From a virus, in the IMG/VR virus record IMGVR_UViG_3300010339_000004, positions 1-42,678 of that record: DNA of 42,678 bases; one strand, given 5' to 3'. A program made the translations under genes and the position numbers. Shown here in pieces: positions 8,926 through 41,489 of this stretch. The notes beneath the pieces were generated by a model that had not been told where the DNA came from, searched no databases, and saw only the letters and a program-made list of their open reading frames with translations. The number at the start of each line of letters is the position of its first letter. The first letter of the stretch is position 1.

Positions 8926-10482
8926 TTAAATCAAAATGTGCGTACCATTGACACTATTGATAGTATCGTCTTTTTTATAAATTAAAGTATATTCTGCTGT
9001 ATACACCGTAATGCTATCTACCACAGTGGCTACAATTACAAAATTGATCCAATAGCCAATCGTTTGTACCTGATACCAAGCGGTATCGGTACCGCTCTCT
9101 TCGTTGATGTAAAGTATTTGTAATTGCGATAATACGTTACCCGTGCTGATCGTACCATTACGTAGAGCCTGATTAATCACGGGTTGTGCAATAGCTAAGA
9201 GTTGAGCTATACCTTGACTATTAGCAGCGATCTCATTTAATACTAATTGTAATCCCAATATAGCCGCGCCCATGTTATCACGTAACCAAATCTCGTTGGC
9301 ATAAACCGTTATTGTCTGCGGTTGCGTCAATGAAGGCCCCATCAATATACCGTTTTGATAAAAAGCAAGTAACGCGCCTGCTTGTTGAGTTTGACCATAA
9401 TAATTTACGCCCAAAGCATCATATTGCTCAGAGATAGAAAGATCGGTTACGGAGGGGGTTAATCCGGGAGCCATTTGGTAAAAATAATTTTGCACGGTAT
9501 TACGACCAAAATAATTTGTGGCCGCTAAAATCATCATAGGTAACATTTCGGGATATTGCGCCGGTGATAAACCCGTCGGTGATACCGTAACTGTTAATCC
9601 GAGATAACCCATCAATGTCCCGGCATAAGTGGTTGCGGCAGTCAAATTCGGAACCGGAATCATAAATAAAAAACTAATATTTTTCCCGGTATTCCAAATT
9701 GCAATTTCTTGATATTGCGTCAAATCTAAATTAAGCGATGTCAGGAAAAGAAAAGAACCGAAATTATTAGATAACGAAGCCGACAGAGTTAACGTTTGAG
9801 TAAGAGTTTCAGCCGCATTACCGTTTGACCAAATAGCACCGACATTAGCAGTAACAGCTTGAGTAAACCATCCGATAACCGCGGAAATATCTTGACCAAC
9901 GCCGCCGGCGGCTACAGAAACAACCGCTACTCCCGTTGCACCACCTACTAAGTCAAAACTTCCTCGCACAGAATCATAAGTGACCGTTGCACTTGTCCAC
10001 AGTGCCCCGCCACCGCTTTCTGCCTGAATGGCGGCTTGTATTGCGGCGGCAACGGCAGCTAAAGTTAAATCACTTGAAAAATTTAAGCCGCTGACATCAA
10101 AAGTAAAACCGCCCAAGGTAAGAGTAAAAGAACCATTGGTAACCGCTTGTAATGCCGAAAGAGTAGATCCTGCGGCTATTAAATTTTGGCCAAAAATCAT
10201 TGGTGCAACGGCAGCATTAGTCCATCGACCAAAAGATATTTTTTGCGGCGAAGAAATGCTTTTACTAATCCAAGCAAAATAAAAAGCGGCGCGAAGGTAC
10301 TCCTCGGAAGTTAATCCAAAATAAGCACCTACGGCCGCAGCACTAGTAAATTCTAAATACATTTGCGTTGGCAAAAGATTATTGGTTGTAAATAATCGGC
10401 CAATTAACTCTCGGGTAGGGACAATGGTCGCCCCACCAATGCCCGAAGTAATATTGACATATTTAGAAATCGGAATTGCCAT
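8926..10482 (-). CDS. Contractile tail sheath protein (DUF3383 family)
   Basis: A 518-residue sheath protein; this gene is the main proof of a contractile tail. It opens MAIPISKYVNITSGIGGA, has the early V-x-TRELIGRLFTTNNLLPT segment, the LTSEEYLRAAFYFAWISKSI segment near residue 60-75, an inserted domain of about 110-200, and a C-terminal region with QYDALGVNYYGQTQQAG followed by a NEIWLRDNMGAAILGL stretch. GGAG lies upstream of the ATG. Contraction drives the tube through the cell envelope. Confidence 0.93.
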   Translation of the reverse strand: MAIPISKYVNITSGIGGATIVPTRELIGRLFTTNNLLPTQMYLEFTSAAAVGAYFGLTSEEYLRAAFYFAWISKSISSPQKISFGRWTNAAVAPMIFGQNLIAAGSTLSALQAVTNGSFTLTLGGFTFDVSGLNFSSDLTLAAVAAAIQAAIQAESGGGALWTSATVTYDSVRGSFDLVGGATGVAVVSVAAGGVGQDISAVIGWFTQAVTANVGAIWSNGNAAETLTQTLTLSASLSNNFGSFLFLTSLNLDLTQYQEIAIWNTGKNISFLFMIPVPNLTAATTYAGTLMGYLGLTVTVSPTGLSPAQYPEMLPMMILAATNYFGRNTVQNYFYQMAPGLTPSVTDLSISEQYDALGVNYYGQTQQAGALLAFYQNGILMGPSLTQPQTITVYANEIWLRDNMGAAILGLQLVLNEIAANSQGIAQLLAIAQPVINQALRNGTISTGNVLSQLQILYINEESGTDTAWYQVQTIGYWINFVIVATVVDSITVYTAEYTLIYKKDDTINSVNGTHILI

Positions 10483-25446: not shown

Positions 25447-25464
25447 CCCCCCCCCCTTTTTTTT
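25447..25464. repeat. Homopolymer tract C10T8 (A8G10 on the terS strand)
   Basis: Ten C followed by eight T on the plus strand. On the terS-coding strand this reads A8G10 and ends 36 bases before the terS ATG. Such tracts slip during replication and can alter promoter spacing, but they are also frequent places of sequencing error. Confidence 0.8.
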
Positions 25465-25593
25465 GTTCTCTTTTTGTTTCACTTTTATATCGGTAAACTT
25501 CGATTTGTACATCGACGGAACAACCCCTATATTAGCCTCATGTCACGGTGTAGCTATGTTGTTGATTATTATATATTATTTGCTGTACATTTT

Positions 25594-25717: not shown

Positions 25718-25833
25718 AAAACACCGAGTTCCGCGGACGCGCTACAGCCGTGGATTGCAGCCCACCGTGACGTTTTAAAATAGCACCGTAACTATCACTC
25801 GTTATATGTTTTAGAGGGTATACAATAAATACA

Positions 25834-25891
25834 TAATTTACATAATTTTATAGTAATTTACATAATTTTATAGTAATTTACATAATTTTAT
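25834..25891. repeat. Tandem 20-bp AT-rich repeats (iteron-like)
   Basis: The unit CATAATTTTATAGTAATTTA occurs twice exactly (25841-25860, 25861-25880), with an 11-base partial third copy after it and a 7-base partial copy before. About 20-bp spacing puts sites roughly two helical turns apart, as in replication iterons. Confidence 0.85.
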
Positions 25892-25914
25892 GATAATATC
25901 TCCGGCGGTGTCAA
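25885..25914 (-). promoter_or_regulatory. Candidate minus-strand promoter toward the late operon
   Basis: Read on the minus strand: TTGACA (25914-25909), 18-base spacer, TAAAAT (25890-25885). The -35 is perfect and the -10 matches 5 of 6. It points to terS about 470 bases away and would transcribe through the tandem repeats. The -10 lies in a very AT-rich tract, where such matches arise easily. Confidence 0.4.
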
Positions 25915-25974
25915 ACCGGCGTTACGGTGCTATTTTAAAATGTTTTGAGTTATAGCTAAAAGAGGTATCTAAAA

Positions 25975-29519: not shown

Positions 29520-29548
29520 ATGATAGCCTCTACTAACATTAATGTCAA
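29520..29548 (-). promoter_or_regulatory. Strong early promoter of the small-gene cluster
   Basis: Minus strand: TTGACA (29548-29543), exactly 17 bases, TATCAT (29525-29520). Perfect -35, 5/6 -10, ideal spacing, 35 bases before the first gene. A 16-bp dyad (29533-29548) covers the -35. Confidence 0.8.
29533..29548. promoter_or_regulatory. Operator-like dyad, copy 1
   Basis: CTAACA-TTAA-TGTCAA on the plus strand. It overlaps the -35 of the small-gene promoter and matches the pattern YTRACA-N4-TGTYAA shared with two other early promoters (35143 and 37239). Confidence 0.55.
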
Positions 29549-29563
29549 TAACAAATTACATAA

Positions 29564-31873
29564 TTATTTCGTTTGATCTATTGTATAATTTTTGGTCACT
29601 TCCACGGGATTATCTATCCGTACCGCCGGGCTCTCTTTATGAATATAAAGAGTCGGTCGTCCGTTATCCGGCAGTATGGGTATCGCAACGCGACCGCTCG
29701 GTAAAGCCGGATGCCAGTCATAACCTAAATTTTGTAGTAATTCTCTGCGTTTGCTACGCGGTATTTTGCGAGACGCATTGAGACGATCTAATAGTCGATC
29801 TAAAAATAAACTAGATATCCAACCGTTTTTAAAACCTTGTAATTGTTGTTCTATCGCCTCCTGAATTTCTTGTTCCACTCCCCCCAATCCTTGCTCTATT
29901 GCATCATGCGTAGTACTAGTGACCGGAGCGGGTTGCTTATGCGCGGGATTAAATTGATCAAGAATTTTATAAGTATGAAGGTACTCATTTACAATTGCAT
30001 ACCCGTCTCTTTGTTCTAACCAGTGATATAAATTCATAAAATAATCTTGTGTTAAACCGTCTCTTATTAAATCCTCTTTGGATTGTTGTGCCGTAAAAAA
30101 CGGGGCGAAACGTCGGTCATTACGAGTTTTACGTAAACCGTTTTTATGATTAGTATTTAATATAAAGTTACCGCATACGCGGCGCATCTCCTGCGGGGAA
30201 TACATTGCACGTATAGCAATATATTCCCCCGTGATCATCGGTTTTAATGTTTCTAACACTTCGATTTGTAAATCGGGATCCACATAAATATCTTCCACAC
30301 CGATAAATATTTTACCATACAACCAGTCATTGTATTTTTCTGTGATTTCTTTTGCATTTGGCAAGTGGGTATACCGACGTCCTACCGCATATGCCACGCA
30401 ACGACTAAAAAGAGTTTTGCCATTGCCATCCACGCCTTGAATTAAGGGTGCCCATTGAAATTTAATCCCGGGATGTTGAACGCACGCCGCTAAGTAACTG
30501 AGTAAAATTAATTGATCGTTTGCATCTGGTAATACTAACGATAAATGACGAGTAAATAATGTAATATCGCCCGCGACTCGACGAGTAGAAATAGGCCACC
30601 ACAAATTAACCAGTACGCGTTCGTCTTCTTTTATTAATTCCGCCGGTGACAAGTCTGGCCTAAAACAAGAAGTCTGAGCTTGTGGAAATTGTATCACTTG
30701 AGATTCCGTAAAAACTTCCCACGCATTACGTGTTACTCGTTGATTTAACGCATCCATCACAAAACTATATCCACCGTATGTTGCCCTAAATTGATCGGGT
30801 TTTAGTAATTCCCCGCCGGGTATTAAAATCCGATGAGCATCTCTCACATACACACACCCCTTAAATATTTCTTTTTGTTGATCCAGGGAGGGAAAAGAAT
30901 TGCGAATTGGGGCATCCTCGGCGACCATAGATTTATCTTGTAACCAACGGGTTTGCATCCCGCATGCTTTGATAATAGTATGACTTTTTAAATAATCTTC
31001 ACGTTGCCATTTCTCACGTACTAATTTTGATTGTAACATTAAGATTAAGATACGCTCACAATTATTGCCCGTCCAGTACGCTAAATGTTGCGCGAGTGCC
31101 ATATCCGCGCTACTCTCATCATAAGCTCGATCTCGATATTTATCGGGATAAGCACGAGACAGTGCTGGTATATCGCATTCCCACAACTCTTTAAAAGACG
31201 CTTTATTACCAAAAATTGCATTGGCGGAATGCGACGCAAGCATACGCTTAAGTAGAGTTTCGTCATCCGTTGGTCCATGCCATTGCACACAAGGCCCGGT
31301 TGTCCATTGGATATCAGAGATAGTATTTTTAACAGGGAAATATTGAGCCGTGAGCCACACTAGAGCCGGATCGTGTACAGTATCCACATTACCTATTGCT
31401 GACGTACCCGTAAGCGCCACAAACCGTTGTTGTGTATAAAATTCTATATTTGCATAAGTAGAAGATTTGCAAGCATGCTCAAGCGCATGACCACGACCGA
31501 TGATATGTAAACCTTTTCCGGATGAAGATATTTCGATCGAGGCTCCGGGAAAATGAGAGGCAATCTCAAGAGATAGTGCAGACCAAGAGTTATCCTGCGA
31601 TAAACAATCATCAATATCAATAAAAAAATAGGGATCATCTTTAGTAAAAACAAATCCCACGCCGTACCCTACACCAAGTATGTGATTATAAGTAATCGCT
31701 TCCTCTGCGGTCATCCATGACTCCGGAGACAAATGATTTATTTTATATCTACGTATCGGATCGATAGGTATTTTATCTGTTTTACCGGGACGTGAGTCGC
31801 TGGGTAGCAATTGATAAATTATAAATTGCGGAAATTTACTTAAACCCTCCAAGGCAATCGGTAAAAAATCCAT
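29564..31873 (-). CDS. Primase-polymerase / SF3 helicase fusion
   Basis: 769 residues. N-terminal PrimPol (AEP) domain with acidic pair PYFFIDIDD (D86, D88) and SSGKGLH (117-123, catalytic His). C-terminal D5/SF3-type helicase with Walker A GVDGNGKT (480-487), Walker B KIFIGVEDIY (521-530) and sensor ILNTNH (571-576) followed by NDRR arginines. It would prime and unwind phage DNA. The last ~130 residues (EQGLGGVEQEIQEAIEQQLQ, then SRKIPRSKRRELLQNLGYDW) may be a winged-helix end domain. It is last in the operon begun by the SF2 helicase. Confidence 0.9.
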   Translation of the reverse strand: MDFLPIALEGLSKFPQFIIYQLLPSDSRPGKTDKIPIDPIRRYKINHLSPESWMTAEEAITYNHILGVGYGVGFVFTKDDPYFFIDIDDCLSQDNSWSALSLEIASHFPGASIEISSSGKGLHIIGRGHALEHACKSSTYANIEFYTQQRFVALTGTSAIGNVDTVHDPALVWLTAQYFPVKNTISDIQWTTGPCVQWHGPTDDETLLKRMLASHSANAIFGNKASFKELWECDIPALSRAYPDKYRDRAYDESSADMALAQHLAYWTGNNCERILILMLQSKLVREKWQREDYLKSHTIIKACGMQTRWLQDKSMVAEDAPIRNSFPSLDQQKEIFKGCVYVRDAHRILIPGGELLKPDQFRATYGGYSFVMDALNQRVTRNAWEVFTESQVIQFPQAQTSCFRPDLSPAELIKEDERVLVNLWWPISTRRVAGDITLFTRHLSLVLPDANDQLILLSYLAACVQHPGIKFQWAPLIQGVDGNGKTLFSRCVAYAVGRRYTHLPNAKEITEKYNDWLYGKIFIGVEDIYVDPDLQIEVLETLKPMITGEYIAIRAMYSPQEMRRVCGNFILNTNHKNGLRKTRNDRRFAPFFTAQQSKEDLIRDGLTQDYFMNLYHWLEQRDGYAIVNEYLHTYKILDQFNPAHKQPAPVTSTTHDAIEQGLGGVEQEIQEAIEQQLQGFKNGWISSLFLDRLLDRLNASRKIPRSKRRELLQNLGYDWHPALPSGRVAIPILPDNGRPTLYIHKESPAVRIDNPVEVTKNYTIDQTK

Positions 31874-31887
31874 ATGGTCGTCTCTTT

Positions 31888-32193
31888 TTATTTAGCTAAG
31901 TACTCCATCACTTTAGCACGTAGGGGTTTAGGTATTTTCGATAGCTCAGGATTACTGAGTAATTGAGCGAGTAACGGTAGTATTTTATTTTCCACTGCAT
32001 AATCTACCACGGCTTGTCGTAATTTTTTTATACTTTTAAAATAGTATAAAATTAAAGAATAGCTACACCCAGCGGCATGAGCTATTTTAACTAATGTAAT
32101 TTTATAGTAACCTTCTTTTAATGCAAAGACTATCGCAGTTTCTAAAATTTGACGTCTACTTTCTTTCGCCGGTAAACGTTGATACTTATTCAT
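31888..32193 (-). CDS. TetR-type short transcription regulator
   Basis: 101 residues. Residues ~12-65 (RRQILETAIVFALKEGYYKI, LVKIAHAAGCSYSLILYYFKS) are the TetR N-terminal helix-turn-helix, with the usual YYF-x-S-K/I helix 4 start. The family normally has ~200 residues with a ligand-binding domain; only ~35 follow here, so it is a short form. It overlaps the nuclease gene by 8 bases. It is a candidate to bind the 16-bp dyads at the early promoters; TetR proteins bind such palindromes as dimers. Confidence 0.78.
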   Translation of the reverse strand: MNKYQRLPAKESRRQILETAIVFALKEGYYKITLVKIAHAAGCSYSLILYYFKSIKKLRQAVVDYAVENKILPLLAQLLSNPELSKIPKPLRAKVMEYLAK

Positions 32194-32665
32194 CCACTAC
32201 ACCTCGGGTAAATTTAGCATCGCCGCCTAAACTAGTAATCAATGTTATCCAGGCTAATTGTGCTTTTTCTCTTTCCGTATCTCGATATTTCCAATTTGAG
32301 GTTTTTACTTCCCGGGACATAAATATCCCTACGGTTTTTCCAACCATATCCAATGTGACAGTTACAGGATTGATCCCAATTAAGTCAGAGGACTTTAAAT
32401 TTTGATTAACATGAGCGGAGTCATTGGCCAAGCCATACCGTAAAAAACGATTATCTTTGGTATAGGTTGCACCTACGTTATTACGCCACAATCGGCCTCC
32501 GCGTTGTGAGGCAAGTAATCTTACTTCTTGCAAAATTTTTGCTTCTGAAATCGACTCTGGAATAGGAGATTCAGTTTTTATATCTAGGTTAAACATCTCT
32601 CGCAGTTCACTTACCGCGGTGTGTGGAATTCCCCAACGAGACATCCATTCATAAAGTTCTTTCAT
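32186..32665 (-). CDS. VRR-NUC domain nuclease
   Basis: 159 residues. VRR-NUC signature: EAKILQEVRLLASQRGGRLW, RNNVGA, SSDLIGINPV (D94) and REVKTSNW (E119, K121), with AQLAWI after it (Q136). This PD-(D/E)XK-type fold cuts branched DNA or processes ends in phage replication. It stands between helicase and primase genes, consistent with replication or recombination. Confidence 0.88.
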   Translation of the reverse strand: MKELYEWMSRWGIPHTAVSELREMFNLDIKTESPIPESISEAKILQEVRLLASQRGGRLWRNNVGATYTKDNRFLRYGLANDSAHVNQNLKSSDLIGINPVTVTLDMVGKTVGIFMSREVKTSNWKYRDTEREKAQLAWITLITSLGGDAKFTRGVVDE

Positions 32666-33336: not shown

Positions 33337-33495
33337 TTAATTTAAAACGTAAGAAATTATAATCAGTAAGCCAAGAATCGTTGTTACTAAACTAATAGTA
33401 ACACCTATACTACAGGGTATTACATAGAACATCGTTAAAAAAAGATTAATTGTTCCCATCATACAGATCGCAATTGCTATTGGAACTCTAATCAT
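33337..33495 (-). CDS. Tiny membrane protein (52 residues)
   Basis: ATG 33495 overlaps the helicase stop as ATGA and follows GGGGGG. Two hydrophobic stretches, roughly 4-28 and 31-50, separated by a CSIG turn. No charged residue after Arg3 apart from the termini. Same style as the next two genes; function unknown. Confidence 0.55.
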   Translation of the reverse strand: MIRVPIAIAICMMGTINLFLTMFYVIPCSIGVTISLVTTILGLLIIISYVLN

Positions 33496-35123
33496 ATTTC
33501 TACCCCCCATCGTATCAATTGCTGGTTTATCTTTTCTTCTAATTCGTGCGCTTCTCGTCGCCCTATTGTTTGAGCCGTGGCAATATCCACACCAAAAGTA
33601 AAATTAAATATTTTATAAATAATTGAATCATTTTGTCCATGATCTCTATGAAACCCTGCCCACAATGAGATAGCGCGTCTTAATTTTTCTTGCTGTTGTT
33701 GTTTTTCTAAATGTCGATTATAAATTGCCTTTTGTATAATAGGTGTTGCATTTTGCGGTATCCTCGGTGAACCATCTATCCGTGCTATCTCTCCCCGTAA
33801 TCGAGCCAGGGCGTCACCTGATAATTCCGTTAAATCGCCGTCTACCTGCTCCGGTGCCGACCTCGTGGCTGGCGGCGTATAATACCCGCAATACGGACAA
33901 ACTTTATGAATTCTTTCATACATCGCAAAACAGTTTTTTCCCAAACAAGTACGCAAAGGGATGATGTCGGTCGATTGACTACGCGATCGTTTGTCTCGGT
34001 TATCCAATGACCAAACTCGTTCTCGATCCGGTAATCGATGCCGCATTACATTGCCCACGTGGTCAATAATAATAGCGCGATCTTTACCGTCTAGAGGTCG
34101 CAATGCGCGGCCAAATTGCTGTGCATATAAACCGTACGACTGAGTAGGTCTAGCCATGGTAATAACTTCTATCGCCGGGACATCGACGCCTTCTCCCAAT
34201 AAATCAACATTAACGAGCTGCAATATTTCTCGGCGTCTAAATCGTTTCATAATTTGATGTCGCAAAATATCGGGAGTTTTACTACTAATAACTTCAGCCG
34301 GTACGCCAAGCCCTCTGAATTCTGCGGCGATCCCTGTGGCGGCCTCAATGTCTACTGCAAAAGTGATACCCAATTTGCCTTCCGCATGTCGTAAATAATG
34401 AGTTACCACATCGCCGGTAATATGCGATTTATGTACCGCCGTCCGTAATTTTGGAGGACTAAAATCTCCGCCAGCAGAAATTGGTACCTCAGATAAATCG
34501 ACATCACTCTCATGATTAAAAATTATATAATCACATAAATAACCGTTCTCAATTAATTGCCGCATAGACGGTCCAACAATCAGATCGTCCATAATACCAT
34601 CCGCTAATCGCCCTAACCCCCGACCATCGGCACGCACCGGCGTGGCTGTTAGGTAAATCCCTTTAGCGTTAGGAAATAATGCCGCAGCTTTACCCCACTT
34701 GTTATCTCGTAGTACATGATGACTTTCATCTTGTACGACTAATGATACTTTTTTAAACCAAGTCTCTTGCCTTTTTATCAAAGTATCTACTCCTGCGACG
34801 GCGCAACGGGCATGCGGATCAAAATAGCATTTGCCAGTCTCGCTTAAGTGTAAAGCCACGATTGCCCGCACAGTGGCGGCTTGCGCTATAATCTTATGTT
34901 TTACCCCACGCTGTGCGAGAGTAAGGGATATTTGACTCACTAACTCATTGCGATGCGCGATAGCGATTGACATTCCTTCATGATCGGCTAAAATTTTGGT
35001 GAACAAAACGGTTTTACCAGACCCCGTGTGTAATTGGACTAATATATTTTTTGATCCCTTTTGCCAAGACGAATAGATAGCCTGCTCTGCCGTACGTTGA
35101 TAGTCTCTTAATAGTAATGTCAT
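33492..35123 (-). CDS. SF2 DEAD/DEAH-box helicase
   Basis: 543 residues. Q-region LRDYQRTAEQ, motif I HTGSGKT (32-38), motif II DESHH (132-136), motif III LTATP (158-162), then QQFGRALRP (motif VI). A zinc ribbon follows (CLGKNCF...CPYCGY) and a helical C-terminus. Similar SF2 helicases are common in phage replication operons and resemble XPB/Ssl2-type unwinding enzymes. First gene of its operon, promoter at 35157-35185. Confidence 0.93.
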   Translation of the reverse strand: MTLLLRDYQRTAEQAIYSSWQKGSKNILVQLHTGSGKTVLFTKILADHEGMSIAIAHRNELVSQISLTLAQRGVKHKIIAQAATVRAIVALHLSETGKCYFDPHARCAVAGVDTLIKRQETWFKKVSLVVQDESHHVLRDNKWGKAAALFPNAKGIYLTATPVRADGRGLGRLADGIMDDLIVGPSMRQLIENGYLCDYIIFNHESDVDLSEVPISAGGDFSPPKLRTAVHKSHITGDVVTHYLRHAEGKLGITFAVDIEAATGIAAEFRGLGVPAEVISSKTPDILRHQIMKRFRRREILQLVNVDLLGEGVDVPAIEVITMARPTQSYGLYAQQFGRALRPLDGKDRAIIIDHVGNVMRHRLPDRERVWSLDNRDKRSRSQSTDIIPLRTCLGKNCFAMYERIHKVCPYCGYYTPPATRSAPEQVDGDLTELSGDALARLRGEIARIDGSPRIPQNATPIIQKAIYNRHLEKQQQQEKLRRAISLWAGFHRDHGQNDSIIYKIFNFTFGVDIATAQTIGRREAHELEEKINQQLIRWGVEI

Positions 35124-35133
35124 TTTTTTATGC

Positions 35134-35161
35134 TTGACTTAATTAACAGTAATGTTAATAT
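35134..35161 (+). promoter_or_regulatory. Rightward early promoter
   Basis: TTGACT (35134-35139), 16-base spacer, TAATAT (35156-35161), upstream of the plus-strand replication operon at 35206. Its -10 coincides with that of a leftward promoter. Confidence 0.65.
35143..35158. promoter_or_regulatory. Operator-like dyad, copy 2
   Basis: TTAACA-GTAA-TGTTAA, extended one base pair each side (35142, 35159). It lies over the spacer of the rightward promoter and the -10 of the leftward one. Confidence 0.6.
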
Positions 35162-35185
35162 ACGCAGCTCATTTGATGTTGTCAA
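35157..35185 (-). promoter_or_regulatory. Leftward early promoter for the helicase operon
   Basis: Minus strand: TTGACA (35185-35180), 17-base spacer, TATATT (35162-35157). Perfect -35 and a 5/6 -10. It faces the rightward promoter with overlapping -10 boxes. Confidence 0.75.
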
Positions 35186-35205: not shown

Positions 35206-35388
35206 ATGAAAGTATACGCAGTTATGATAGACAGTCATGAAATACTGACGGACTGTTTTTTAGATAAAGAAGAAGCCGAAGAATGTGCTAAATCATTTGG
35301 TGAGAATACCCCCGGTACCACTCGGATTATAGAATTAAATTGTAAGGATTTGCCCGAAATGTCAACTCTAACATGTGGCTATGAATAA
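35206..35388 (+). CDS. Small orphan protein, first gene of rightward operon
   Basis: 60 residues, MKVYAVMIDSHEILTDCFLD then KEEAEECAKSFGE; a beta-beta-alpha unit like other short phage proteins. AAGGAG before the ATG. Unknown function; promoter-proximal so likely well expressed. Confidence 0.65.
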   Translation: MKVYAVMIDSHEILTDCFLDKEEAEECAKSFGENTPGTTRIIELNCKDLPEMSTLTCGYE

Positions 35389-35432: not shown

Positions 35433-36128
35433 ATGATATCAATAACGATTGATAATTTAGGTGAAGAAGATGCGTATGTATTACGTAAAGTAGCTATGTT
35501 TTTAGAAGACATGGCTATTTGGAGGAAAGAACCAAAGGATATGCCGCCGGATAACGCAGCCCGCGATCAAACTTGTGAAAATTACGCCATAACCGAGGAA
35601 AACGCAAATGAAGTAGAAGATATAGACTCTGAATTAGATACACAAAAACAAGAGGATGAACTTGATCAAACCGGTTTACCGTGGGATGAACGTATACATT
35701 CTAGCTCACGAACAAAAACAGCAGATGGCCAATGGCGACAACGTCGCGGCGTTGCCCCGCACTTAGTTAAACACGTATTATCTGAGCATGATCAATCTAA
35801 AAAAGTTCCTTTACCGCCGACTATTCCCATTGTGGTTTCTAAAGTTAAACTTAAGATTCCCCTACCACCGGCTATACCATTGATACAAGAATCTTATATT
35901 GATCCTGAATCTTTGAATCCTAAAACAAATAGTCTTCAACAACCGTTTATAGATATAACTAATAGAGTTAAAGACCTGATAAAAGAGGGAAAATTAGATC
36001 GTAAAGTTTTCCAAAAATTAGTACTAAAAGCCGGTCTACCCTCTCTTGCTTCTGGACGAGATCATCCTGAGTTAGTAGAAGTTTTATCGGATTTAGTGGA
36101 TGAGGAAATATTAATGGGAGCGGGTTGA
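35433..36128 (+). CDS. Conserved phage protein with LPWDxRIHSSS motif
   Basis: 231 residues. The motif LPWDERIHSSSRTKTADGQW followed by RQRRGV (about residues 82-107) is a recurring phage signature in proteins encoded near recombination and replication genes; its biochemical role is not known to me. A proline-rich linker follows (VPLPPTIPIVV, KIPLPPAIPLI) and a helical C-terminal domain (LIKEGKLDRKVFQKLVLKAG) that may oligomerise. AAGGAG ribosome site. It precedes the nuclease gene by one base. Confidence 0.72.
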   Translation: MISITIDNLGEEDAYVLRKVAMFLEDMAIWRKEPKDMPPDNAARDQTCENYAITEENANEVEDIDSELDTQKQEDELDQTGLPWDERIHSSSRTKTADGQWRQRRGVAPHLVKHVLSEHDQSKKVPLPPTIPIVVSKVKLKIPLPPAIPLIQESYIDPESLNPKTNSLQQPFIDITNRVKDLIKEGKLDRKVFQKLVLKAGLPSLASGRDHPELVEVLSDLVDEEILMGAG

Positions 36129-36129
36129 T

Positions 36130-37242
36130 ATGAATTTAGATCCATCTTCTGCGGCGCGGCGTGTTAATTGTTCTGGCTCTTTTTTATTAGAACAACAATT
36201 ACCCCCACAAGAAAAATCCCCTTCGGCTATCGAGGGGGATTTAGCGCACGAATTTGCTAAAGAAATACTATTACAAAATCTTGATAGAGATAGCGTACCC
36301 CCAACGCTTGGAAGAGTCACGACACCACCGGATTTATCAGACGATCTTTTACAGGCAATTGATATTTACGTGGCAGATGTATTAAATATTACACAATTAG
36401 CCAAACAAAAACCTACTATAGAAACAAAAATCCATATCTCCGATATACATAATAAATGTTATGGAACCCCTGACTGTTGGTTACGATGGAAAGAAACTAT
36501 ATATTTATGGGAGTTTAAATCCGGACACTCCCCCGTAGAAGTTTTTGAAAATTGGCAAATGATAGAGTATGCGTCCGGTATATTATCTCTTTTACAAAAA
36601 CGAGGAGAAGACGAACCGATGACTTTTATTTTTCGTTTAGTACAACCGCGATGCTATTTAAAAAAAACTCCAATTACTGAGTGGCGGATATTAACACGGG
36701 AATTAGATGAGTATTTTAATGCGCTGTGCATATCCGAAAATCTAGCCTTACAACCGCACATGCCTTGTACTACCAATACCGAATGTGTTTTTTGTCCCGC
36801 TCGACATGTATGTTCGGCACTACATTCCTCGGCATTAACTTTAATTGATGCTCAAATGGAAAATATTAATAGTGATTTGAATGACGAAAAATTAGGTTAT
36901 GAACTAAGAAATTTACATTATGCGGAAAAGCTTTTAAAAGCTAGAATAACGGCACTTGAAGAACAAGCTATTTTTAAAATTAAAAAAGGTCAACGTATAC
37001 CGCCGTATGTTTTAGAGTCAGCCACACCTCGTGAAAAATGGAATGGCAAAACGGAAGATATAGAATTAATAGGAGAAATGTTAGGAATAAATTTATTAAA
37101 ACCCAAGGAACTTGTTACCCCAAAACAAGCCATTAAAGCAGGAATGAACGCGGAACTGGTAAGAAGTTACACTGAACTACAACAAGGACCATTAAAATTA
37201 ATTCAACACAACGAGAAAAAAGTCAGGAAAATATTTAGTTGA
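36130..37242 (+). CDS. RecB/Cas4-like nuclease (DUF2800)
   Basis: 370 residues. PD-(D/E)XK core: GDLAHEFA (H40), YGTPDCW (D115), WEFKSG (E128, K130), NWQMIEYA (Q143, Y147). Iron-sulfur cysteines: C14 near the N-terminus and CVFCPARHVC (C219, C222, C228), as in Cas4 and AddB. DUF2800 proteins sit beside an ssDNA-binding protein in many phages and likely process ends for recombination. The gene is followed by a promoter whose -35 overlaps its stop. Confidence 0.88.
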   Translation: MNLDPSSAARRVNCSGSFLLEQQLPPQEKSPSAIEGDLAHEFAKEILLQNLDRDSVPPTLGRVTTPPDLSDDLLQAIDIYVADVLNITQLAKQKPTIETKIHISDIHNKCYGTPDCWLRWKETIYLWEFKSGHSPVEVFENWQMIEYASGILSLLQKRGEDEPMTFIFRLVQPRCYLKKTPITEWRILTRELDEYFNALCISENLALQPHMPCTTNTECVFCPARHVCSALHSSALTLIDAQMENINSDLNDEKLGYELRNLHYAEKLLKARITALEEQAIFKIKKGQRIPPYVLESATPREKWNGKTEDIELIGEMLGINLLKPKELVTPKQAIKAGMNAELVRSYTELQQGPLKLIQHNEKKVRKIFS

Positions 37243-37254
37243 CACTGTTGTCAA
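37239..37254. promoter_or_regulatory. Operator-like dyad, copy 3
   Basis: TTGACA-CTGT-TGTCAA covers the -35 and the start of the spacer. Same arm pattern and spacing as the dyads at 29533 and 35143. Confidence 0.55.
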
Positions 37255-37267
37255 TATTATTTAATAT
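37239..37267 (+). promoter_or_regulatory. Internal rightward promoter
   Basis: TTGACA (37239-37244), 17-base spacer, TAATAT (37262-37267). Near-consensus, 30 bases before the next ATG. The -35 includes the stop codon of the nuclease gene. Confidence 0.75.
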
Positions 37268-37296: not shown

Positions 37297-37653
37297 ATGC
37301 CCATTCCAATTGTAATGAATGAACCCCAAGCCATAGTATTAGATACTTCAGGAATAGTTTTTGTATTAACAAAAATTCCTCAAGATATTTTCTCTCCAAA
37401 ACTACTAGTAAGCTACCTTTTAGATGCTCAAATGCAGGAAGAGCAAATAGGAAAAACTTTTATTAATAATCCACATAGGACAATTTTACTATCTCATGTA
37501 TTTGTTTTATGCGGCGAATATGTCGACCAATTAGATAATGAAGAAGATATTAAAAAGTATTGTATAACACCAGGTATTATAGAGAAAATAGAGATAGCTA
37601 TGCTTAATTATAATTTAGAAATAGTTTTTACTCAAGGAGACGTAAATGACTGA
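37297..37653 (+). CDS. Orphan protein upstream of ssDNA-binding gene
   Basis: 118 residues, MPIPIVMNEPQAIVLDTSGI at the start; mixed alpha/beta with acidic DQLDNEEDIKKY. AAGGAG before ATG. It overlaps the next gene by 8 bases. Not recognised. Confidence 0.65.
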   Translation: MPIPIVMNEPQAIVLDTSGIVFVLTKIPQDIFSPKLLVSYLLDAQMQEEQIGKTFINNPHRTILLSHVFVLCGEYVDQLDNEEDIKKYCITPGIIEKIEIAMLNYNLEIVFTQGDVND

Positions 37654-38509
37654 ACAGTATGAATTTTTAACGCCGGTCGGTGGACGGCTGGTAGCAGGAT
37701 CGCTATACCAACCACAGACCACAAATGTGGACGGAAAATCTTTAATTGATAAAAAAGGTCAAGCATATGTTAAATATTTTATAGCCGTGGCTATTCAAAA
37801 AGGTAACGAAAAACATTGGTCAGAAACAGAATGGGGATCTAAAATATGGCAAGCCGGTCATGCGCTAAATCCAACTTCAGCACGCTCACCCGTGTTTGCA
37901 TGGAAAGTAGTGGATGGAGATAGTACCGTACCTAATCAAAAAGGTATTACTCCCGCGGAACGAGAAGCGTATCCGGGTAATTGGGTTTTATCTTTTAGTA
38001 ATGGTTTTCCTACCAATATTTATAATTTCTCTGACGGCACTCAACGAATAGTAACGGAGGAAAATTTTGTTAATCGCGGCGATTATATCCAAGTTTTTGC
38101 AAACATACGTGACAACGGTTCCCCGCGCAATCCAGGGTTATTTTTAAATCAATCCATGATTGCTTTTAACGCTTACGGCGAACGATTATCTTATATGCCG
38201 GATGTTGAAGACGTTGGTTTTGGCCAAGGTCAATTGCCACCTGGCGCAAGTCTAACTCCACTGTCGGGTATGACAACTCCGGCGGCACCGACATCTGCTG
38301 TTTCTGCACCGCCGCCGGTTATGCCAAAACCAATTGTTGTTACTCCGCATACTGCAATACTTATTCCCCCGGCGGCACCCACTCCACCTATGCCTATCGT
38401 TTCCGCCAGTCCTCGCATGTCTACCAAAGCGCAAGGTAGCAGTTACGAACAACTTATTTCTGTGGGTTGGACAGACGAATTATTAAAACAACATGGAATG
38501 TTTGCATGA
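37646..38509 (+). CDS. Putative ssDNA-binding protein
   Basis: 287 residues. Opens EFLTPVGGRLVAGSLYQPQT, then YVKYFIAVAIQKGNEKHWSE and FAWKVVDGDSTVPNQKG, GNWVLSFSNGF, a beta-rich OB-like core; this is a family seen next to DUF2800 nucleases and polymerases and taken as the phage ssDNA-binding protein. A long Pro/Ala-rich linker (215-265) leads to a C-terminal SYEQLISVGWTDELLKQHG motif, likely the contact with partner proteins. ATGA overlap with the polymerase gene. Confidence 0.8.
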   Translation: MTEQYEFLTPVGGRLVAGSLYQPQTTNVDGKSLIDKKGQAYVKYFIAVAIQKGNEKHWSETEWGSKIWQAGHALNPTSARSPVFAWKVVDGDSTVPNQKGITPAEREAYPGNWVLSFSNGFPTNIYNFSDGTQRIVTEENFVNRGDYIQVFANIRDNGSPRNPGLFLNQSMIAFNAYGERLSYMPDVEDVGFGQGQLPPGASLTPLSGMTTPAAPTSAVSAPPPVMPKPIVVTPHTAILIPPAAPTPPMPIVSASPRMSTKAQGSSYEQLISVGWTDELLKQHGMFA

Positions 38510-40817: not shown

Positions 40818-41099
40818 ATGTGGCATTGTCATAAATACACTAGGATTATTAAACGATATAAACTGTCGACAGTTGTTTTATCCGAGGTTGGGTTAGAAAT
40901 AATATGGAGGTTATGCAAAGGAAAAATTTTAAATAACCTGGAAGATCCCCGCTTTAATTTTTATTTTATGGAAAAAGTAAGAAACAGGGGTTGCGTAGTA
41001 AACATGTTGCGATGTCGCAAATGTAAAAAAATAGCATTTCTAGTAATTCCACTACCCAATAAACCATTACAAGCTAAATACAGAGAACTAACCCAATGA
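40818..41099 (+). CDS. Small basic cysteine-containing protein
   Basis: 93 residues, basic, with MLRCRKCKKIAFLVIP near the C-terminus, possibly part of a zinc site with C and H near MWHCHKY. Follows the polymerase by 5 bases, AAGGA upstream. Its 3' end is part of a ~50-base direct repeat. Confidence 0.6.
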   Translation: MWHCHKYTRIIKRYKLSTVVLSEVGLEIIWRLCKGKILNNLEDPRFNFYFMEKVRNRGCVVNMLRCRKCKKIAFLVIPLPNKPLQAKYRELTQ

Positions 41100-41122
41100 T
41101 TAACAAAACTACTTACTTTAAT
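41072..41122. repeat. Direct repeat, copy 1 (start of the 41096 gene)
   Basis: Begins AGCTAAATACAGAGAACTAA and runs through the start codon of the gene at 41096. Copy 2 lies 232 bases downstream at 41304-41354 across the start of the 41328 gene, with about six mismatches. Confidence 0.85.
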
Positions 41123-41323
41123 TACTACATAACCTATGGACTATCAGGGTTGTCATATACTATTTTAGATAGCCAAGTAATACAATTGGAAACAAAAATT
41201 ACCGGATATCATCATGTAAAAATATTAACTGAAGAACTAAGAGAAAAGTTACATCTTCCAACATTAATTTTATTATCCTGGCATTTATTGGAGCCTCATG
41301 AGGAGCTTAATACAGAGAACTAA
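41096..41323 (+). CDS. Small orphan protein
   Basis: 75 residues beginning MINKTTYFNYYITYGLSGLS. ATGA overlap with the gene before it. Its start (M-x-NKT-x-x-x-N) resembles that of the next gene owing to the duplicated DNA. No domain recognised. Confidence 0.55.
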   Translation: MINKTTYFNYYITYGLSGLSYTILDSQVIQLETKITGYHHVKILTEELREKLHLPTLILLSWHLLEPHEELNTEN

Positions 41324-41354
41324 CCCAATGACTAACAAAACTATTGATTTAAAT
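41304..41354. repeat. Direct repeat, copy 2 (start of the 41328 gene)
   Basis: Second copy of the repeat described at 41072-41122, with the start codon in the same relative place. Confidence 0.85.
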
Positions 41355-41489
41355 TGTTGCCCCTTTTGTTTAAGACGACAATACGTTTTTTTGGAGCTTG
41401 ATCCACCGTCATACCATATTAATTGCACATGTGGCGCGCGCACAAGTCTTAACTACCGTTGGCCTTCAATAATTAATCTCAAACTGTGA
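41328..41489 (+). CDS. Lar-like small zinc-ribbon protein
   Basis: 53 residues from ATG 41328. Motif LNCCPFC ... INCTCGARTSLNY is the C-P-F-C ... C-x-C-G-A ribbon of Lar-type restriction alleviation proteins. Family members are small and often phage-borne; anti-restriction activity here is a guess. Its 3' end overlaps the spanin gene on the other strand by 37 bases. Confidence 0.65.
   Translation: MTNKTIDLNCCPFCLRRQYVFLELDPPSYHINCTCGARTSLNYRWPSIINLKL

Follow-up and report, generated by a model that had tools for sequence, protein, structure and literature searches.

Predicted face-to-face overlapping promoters and a conserved operator-like dyad at the junction of two opposing phage replication operons

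The window analysed here is a whole virus record of 42,678 bases. Within it, a leftward helicase-primase operon and a rightward exonuclease-SSB-polymerase operon are separated by a short junction. In the 82 bp that separate the helicase gene from a 60-aa ORF lie two predicted, opposed promoters and a dyad. The genes on either side are listed below.

29564-31873, minus strand: DNA primase (phrog_1829), leftward; family match
31888-32193, minus strand: 101-aa mini TetR-type HTH protein, a candidate repressor; helicase operon, immediately ahead of the primase; TetR_N match
32186-32665, minus strand: endonuclease-like gene (phrog_93) of the leftward operon; family match
33492-35123, minus strand: DNA helicase (phrog_16; ResIII/Helicase_C), first gene of the leftward operon; family match
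35206-35388, plus strand: 60-aa ORF, first gene of the rightward operon, with a good AAGGAG ribosome site
35433-36128, plus strand: 231-aa protein (phrog_11133), conserved in relatives as the gene that opens the opposing operon; family match
36130-37242, plus strand: exonuclease (phrog_69); family match
37646-38509, plus strand: Gp2.5-like ssDNA-binding/annealing protein (phrog_7011); family match

The rightward operon also includes a DNA polymerase gene, and a family search with the 60-aa ORF returned no match. The gene content of both arms bears out the two opposing replication operons named in the preliminary description.

Other repeats are present in the window. At positions 25773-25945 there is a long inverted repeat (TTTTAAAATAGCACCGTAAC ... 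GTTACGGTGCTATTTTAAAA) around three tandem copies of about ACATAATTTTATAGTAATTT. It sits in a non-coding gap of ~560 bp between a small terminase gene and position 25969, and is possibly an origin, a packaging element or an RNA element. The same terminase-side gap contains a C run followed by a T run (25447-25470). Finally, there is a 59-nt direct repeat, 85% identical between its copies (41065-41123 and 41297-41355), and a small rightward reading frame begins within each copy.

The elements of the junction, at positions 35134-35185, are as follows.

35134-35139, plus strand: -35 hexamer TTGACT of the rightward promoter; sequence, promoter scan
35142-35159, no strand assigned: perfect dyad ATTAACA-GTAA-TGTTAAT, with 7-bp arms; sequence, member of the TTRAC-N6-GTYAA operator-like class
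35153-35161, plus strand: extended -10 element TGT-TAATAT of the rightward promoter, hexamer at 35156-35161; sequence, promoter scan
35157-35162, minus strand: -10 hexamer TATATT (35162-35157) of the leftward promoter; sequence, promoter scan
35180-35185, minus strand: -35 hexamer TTGACA (35185-35180) of the leftward promoter; sequence, promoter scan

The putative rightward promoter reads TTGACT-N16-TAATAT, with a TG at 35153-35154 (a TGn extended -10). The putative leftward promoter, TTGACA-N17-TATATT, matches the consensus at 11 of 12 positions. The opposed -10 hexamers have 5 of 6 bp in common. Key positions pair reciprocally; A 35157 and T 35161 serve both hexamers as -11A and -7T. Hence, the predicted start sites are 18 bp apart, near 35150 for leftward and near 35168 for rightward transcription. 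Bidirectional promoters of the Grainger laboratory type also have T at -18 and A at +1 for each direction. Here, position 35150 serves as rightward -18T and leftward +1A, and position 35168 is C/G. The dyad forms a palindrome across both promoters, overlying the helicase -10 and +1 positions and the rightward spacer and -10. Thus, the near-coincident -10 hexamers (35156-35161 and 35157-35162) and the perfect dyad amid the two promoters (35142-35159) all lie where first described.

We asked how often such a pair is expected by chance. In a general scan of the right part of the window, 40 promoter-like sites were found, compared with 44.5 expected from shuffled sequences. With no such excess, a single promoter match means little. 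One strong promoter-like match in the window, TTGACA-N16-TAAAAT (11/12), lies at 34967-34994, inside the helicase gene and on the opposite strand. In a PWM scan of the 42.7 kb, the pair at 35156 was the top-scoring face-to-face promoter pair, and pairs as good occurred on average 0.15 times per shuffled window. When the 115-bp junction was shuffled, none of 2000 sequences reached the observed pair score, and the dyad class appeared in 4 of 2000. These shuffles, together with the relatives described below, rule out chance promoter matches as the source of the pair.

Helicase homologues were taken from viral contigs and annotated phages. Many relatives keep the gene order: helicase, endonuclease, HTH protein and primase on one side; the 231-aa homologue, exonuclease, SSB and polymerase on the other. 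About 30 of 97 distinct helicase-upstream regions contain opposed -35 elements (TTGAC-N31..34-GTCAA, 41-44 bp end to end), where shuffles predict at most about 0.03 per spacing. The pairs are spread over 20 of 69 helicase clusters (80% identity). A -10 element with at least 4 of 6 matches was present in 30 of 31 cases for the helicase direction and in 21 of 31 for the opposite direction, compared with 11% at random positions. We consider the predicted face-to-face arrangement to be a conserved feature, because opposed -35 elements exceed chance and the expected -10 elements accompany them. The window carries a variant. Its pair measures 52 bp in all, as against 41-44 bp in the relatives, with the rightward -35 ~9 bp further out, so that the -10 elements nearly coincide. 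In the wider arrangement of the relatives, the -10 elements are ~10 bp apart and the predicted starts ~29 bp apart. Paired promoters also occur without the dyad, for example in Shewanella phage SppYZU01 (L022) and Agrobacterium phage Milano (L024). The promoter pair and the dyad are thus separable.

When inverted TTGAC half-sites in the helicase-upstream regions were counted at all spacings, a second signal stood out at exactly N6. The resulting 16-bp pattern, TTRAC-N6-GTYAA, has 85 copies in 0.79 Mb of related loci, compared with 0-7 at each other spacing. Across 55 whole records, we sum 135 sites against 9 for a reversed control pattern. Allowing one mismatch at most, the dyad is found no more than 90 bp upstream of the helicase gene in 27 of 97 cases, the opposing operon in 28 of 71, the TetR-type gene in 23 of 70 and the SSB gene in 6 of 16. 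The same counts at spacings 3-5 and 7-9 are 0-2 each. The endonuclease gene has a dyad close upstream less often, and relatives also have one before the gene that follows the primase. Class-bearing relatives include phages of Edwardsiella, Vibrio and Escherichia. In one record, G011 (the source of L015), a fully palindromic 16-mer, TTGACTCATGAGTCAA, occurs in four identical copies, at 9513, 13219, 16929 and 45749; this suggests a lineage-specific and very uniform operator.

The dyads keep a fixed register with promoter elements. The HTH, SSB and post-primase promoters all have the left half-site as their -35 hexamer, with a -10 element ~17 bp further on. Away from the junction, the left half of the dyad is usually a -35 element, a repressor-operator position. 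In relatives, a dyad at the helicase junction has its left half directly next to the helicase -10, and its right half serves as the -35 element of the opposing promoter. The dyad has an identical placement on the helicase -10 in the window (TATATTAACATTACTGTTAA) and in L047 (TATATTGACTACCCTGTCAA). In the window dyad, TTAAC replaces TTGAC, which would fit release from -35 duty. Mere symmetry of the -10 elements does not explain the dyad, since the class is found again at single promoters and its spacing is fixed.

Two exact members of the class are found in the window, at 35143 and 37239, and an imperfect one at 29533. All three are at promoters. An exact second copy of the 35142-35159 dyad is absent from the window. 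The two additional sites are these.

37238-37255, no strand assigned: second site, GTTGACACTGTTGTCAAT; class match, promoter register, conserved place
29520-29549, minus strand: third, imperfect site with a leftward promoter; promoter register, conserved place

For the second site, the left half is the -35 element of a rightward promoter, TTGACA-N17-TAATAT (37239-37267); in relatives, a dyad occupies the corresponding position, between their exonuclease and SSB genes. The third site consists of a dyad at 29532-29549 (ATTGACATTAATGTTAGT on the minus strand), and a leftward promoter has its TTGACA as the -35 element (N17, then TATCAT at 29525-29520). Here too, a dyad is found at the equivalent position in relatives, following the primase gene. 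With one mismatch allowed, spacing 6 is no commoner in the window than spacings 5 or 7, and loose matches were therefore dropped. Thus, copies at 1209, 12906, 12963, 34051 and 35350 are not claimed, and the site at 29533 is kept only because of its promoter register and conserved place. The preliminary description had treated the junction dyad as a local feature. Instead, it belongs to a family of conserved, operator-like sites distributed over the replication module, and this suggests that a single regulator controls the two arms jointly.

A candidate for that regulator is encoded within one of the two operons, on the same strand as the helicase. The 31888-32193 protein matches TetR_N with 25.7 bits, only just above the cut-off of 24, and 24 of 26 aligned family members match TetR_N. 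Among solved structures, the family profile matches the DNA-binding domains of TetR-family proteins, chiefly within the first 60-70 residues. With 101 aa and a match to the N-terminal domain only, the protein lacks the C-terminal ligand-binding and dimerisation domain. TetR-type proteins are the sole regulator-like family found in the replication module. Among the rightward ORFs, several of which encode proteins with no family match, a family search found no HTH protein; the leftward arm has one. The dyad before 23 of 70 TetR-type genes is as would be expected for self-repression. The TetR-type gene of the window has no dyad in front of it, so self-control would have to act via the helicase promoter.

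Some relatives have a fused double-HTH form of the protein, of ~167 aa. Dyads are present at 32 of 60 loci with the single-HTH form, compared with 1 of 14 with the fused form (Fisher p=0.002, a value that ignores shared ancestry). Within the stretch examined, an exact dyad is missing from about half of the single-HTH loci. The association suggests that protein form and operator form are linked, and binding is not thereby proved. Fused two-HTH genes lie before the primase in L067, L037, L062, L065, L070, L079, L006, L096 and others. These loci are mostly without the 16-bp palindrome, and some keep paired promoters.

Paired promoter elements, a dyad of fixed spacing, the conservation of these features and their -35/-10 register are observed in the sequences and their comparison. 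Taking them together, we think it probable that the junction combines a bidirectional promoter and a common operator for the mini-TetR protein (31888-32193), by which both operons would be co-regulated and not switched either/or. Early after entry, host σ70 polymerase would load in either direction at the nearly coincident -10 elements. Leftward mRNA would encode helicase, endonuclease, regulator and primase, and rightward mRNA exonuclease, SSB and polymerase. The HTH protein would accumulate from the leftward operon and most likely bind the dyad as a dimer. Bound at the candidate site, 35142-35159, it would cover the helicase -10 and start, and the rightward spacer and -10, lowering both operons once sufficient regulator is present. 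The SSB-side and post-primase promoters would be blocked along with the junction. The net logic would be joint negative feedback, to which polymerase exclusion may add. Such an arrangement probably lets one small phage protein lower both gene sets together.

A broader version of this proposal has about an even chance of holding. A regulon common to the phage group would be controlled by a TetR-type protein of ~100 aa (a DNA-binding domain with a short tail), which represses early replication promoters through TTGAC-N6-GTCAA sites that include the -35 element and gates the conserved face-to-face promoter. Some lineages would have fused two HTHs and lost the palindrome.

The junction had earlier been interpreted as a binary switch. 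The opposed overlapping promoters, the two replication operons, the central dyad and the recurrence beyond chance all stand; the part that fares badly is a switch by polymerase exclusion. On that account, whichever promoter is occupied would shut out the other, and the symmetry of the dyad would be incidental to an AT-rich core. There is indeed no room for two polymerases, as the -10 hexamers overlap by 5 bp. Competition is also possible given a near-consensus leftward promoter, and L022 and L024 keep the pair without the dyad. However, at five tested E. coli bidirectional promoters polymerases do not compete, since basal initiation is too low, and one direction is suppressed only if the other is strongly activated (PMC12825309). 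Furthermore, many single promoters carry the fixed-spacing dyad, which is therefore no by-product of overlap, and replication proteins from both operons are needed together. Mutual exclusion is possible if either promoter is saturated; exclusion alone is an unlikely explanation.

Similarly improbable, in our view, is a reading in which a phage activator, or another phage regulator, binds the dyad and raises one or both promoters. The fixed-spacing dyads look clearly regulatory, the sign of control is not readable from sequence, and some regulators both activate and repress at bidirectional promoters (PMC12825309). Conversely, the sites overlap the -35 or the -10 and start, positions that block polymerase; promoters with good -35 and -10 elements should need no activator; and the TetR-type family is the only candidate in the module. 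Host regulators do act on phage promoters, as reported for CtrA in alphaproteobacterial phages (PMC9437464), but a host protein that reads the dyad and tunes phage replication genes to host state is very improbable, given that the site class recurs in relatives that include phages of Edwardsiella, Vibrio and Escherichia and precedes a phage-encoded HTH gene.

If the shared-operator proposal is correct, a large phage group, most of it uncultured, would gain a regulatory map (operator, sites and candidate repressor). The map would extend to cultured members such as Edwardsiella phage PEi21, which carries dyads, and Vibrio phage VP16T; we found no described mode of early control for these. Our literature search, with most subscription journals outside its scope, returned nothing relevant on this operator or on mini-TetR control of phage replication genes. 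The junction would also be a natural case of a bidirectional promoter and a shared operator conserved together. Hence, polymerase competition and shared repression can be compared directly by experiment.

The Grainger laboratory defines bidirectional promoters as having divergent starts 7-25 bp apart, 18 bp being commonest (PMC10268837). The promoter core of the window fits this class. As at the E. coli and Salmonella examples (PMC10268837, PMC12825309), the -10 elements share bases, -11A and -7T are reciprocal and the predicted starts are 18 bp apart. The phage junction differs in having good -35 elements both ways, long replication operons and a putative phage-specific operator on top; the ~29-bp start spacing predicted for relatives falls outside the 7-25 bp definition.

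Phage lambda OR and OL combine opposing early promoters with operators over core elements, as does the junction described here. In a lambda-type bistable switch, two regulators, one from each arm, repress each other. Family searches of the window, in which several proteins gave no match, returned one HTH protein, on the leftward arm, and no antagonistic repressor pair; there is no sign of a lysogeny choice. At the E. coli biotin operator (bioA/bioB), face-to-face promoters are shut by BirA at a single operator. The predicted phage arrangement is alike in both respects, but BirA is unrelated and its palindrome is longer and different. In Tn10, tetA and tetR have divergent overlapping promoters with internal palindromic operators, and one transcript encodes the TetR-family repressor. 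Likewise, the junction has overlapping divergent promoters, a palindrome inside and a TetR-type candidate encoded by one operon. Unlike the Tn10 system, the candidate regulator is ~100 aa long without a ligand-binding domain, the junction has one putative operator rather than two, and the genes concerned serve replication, not drug efflux, with further putative operators at several other promoters.
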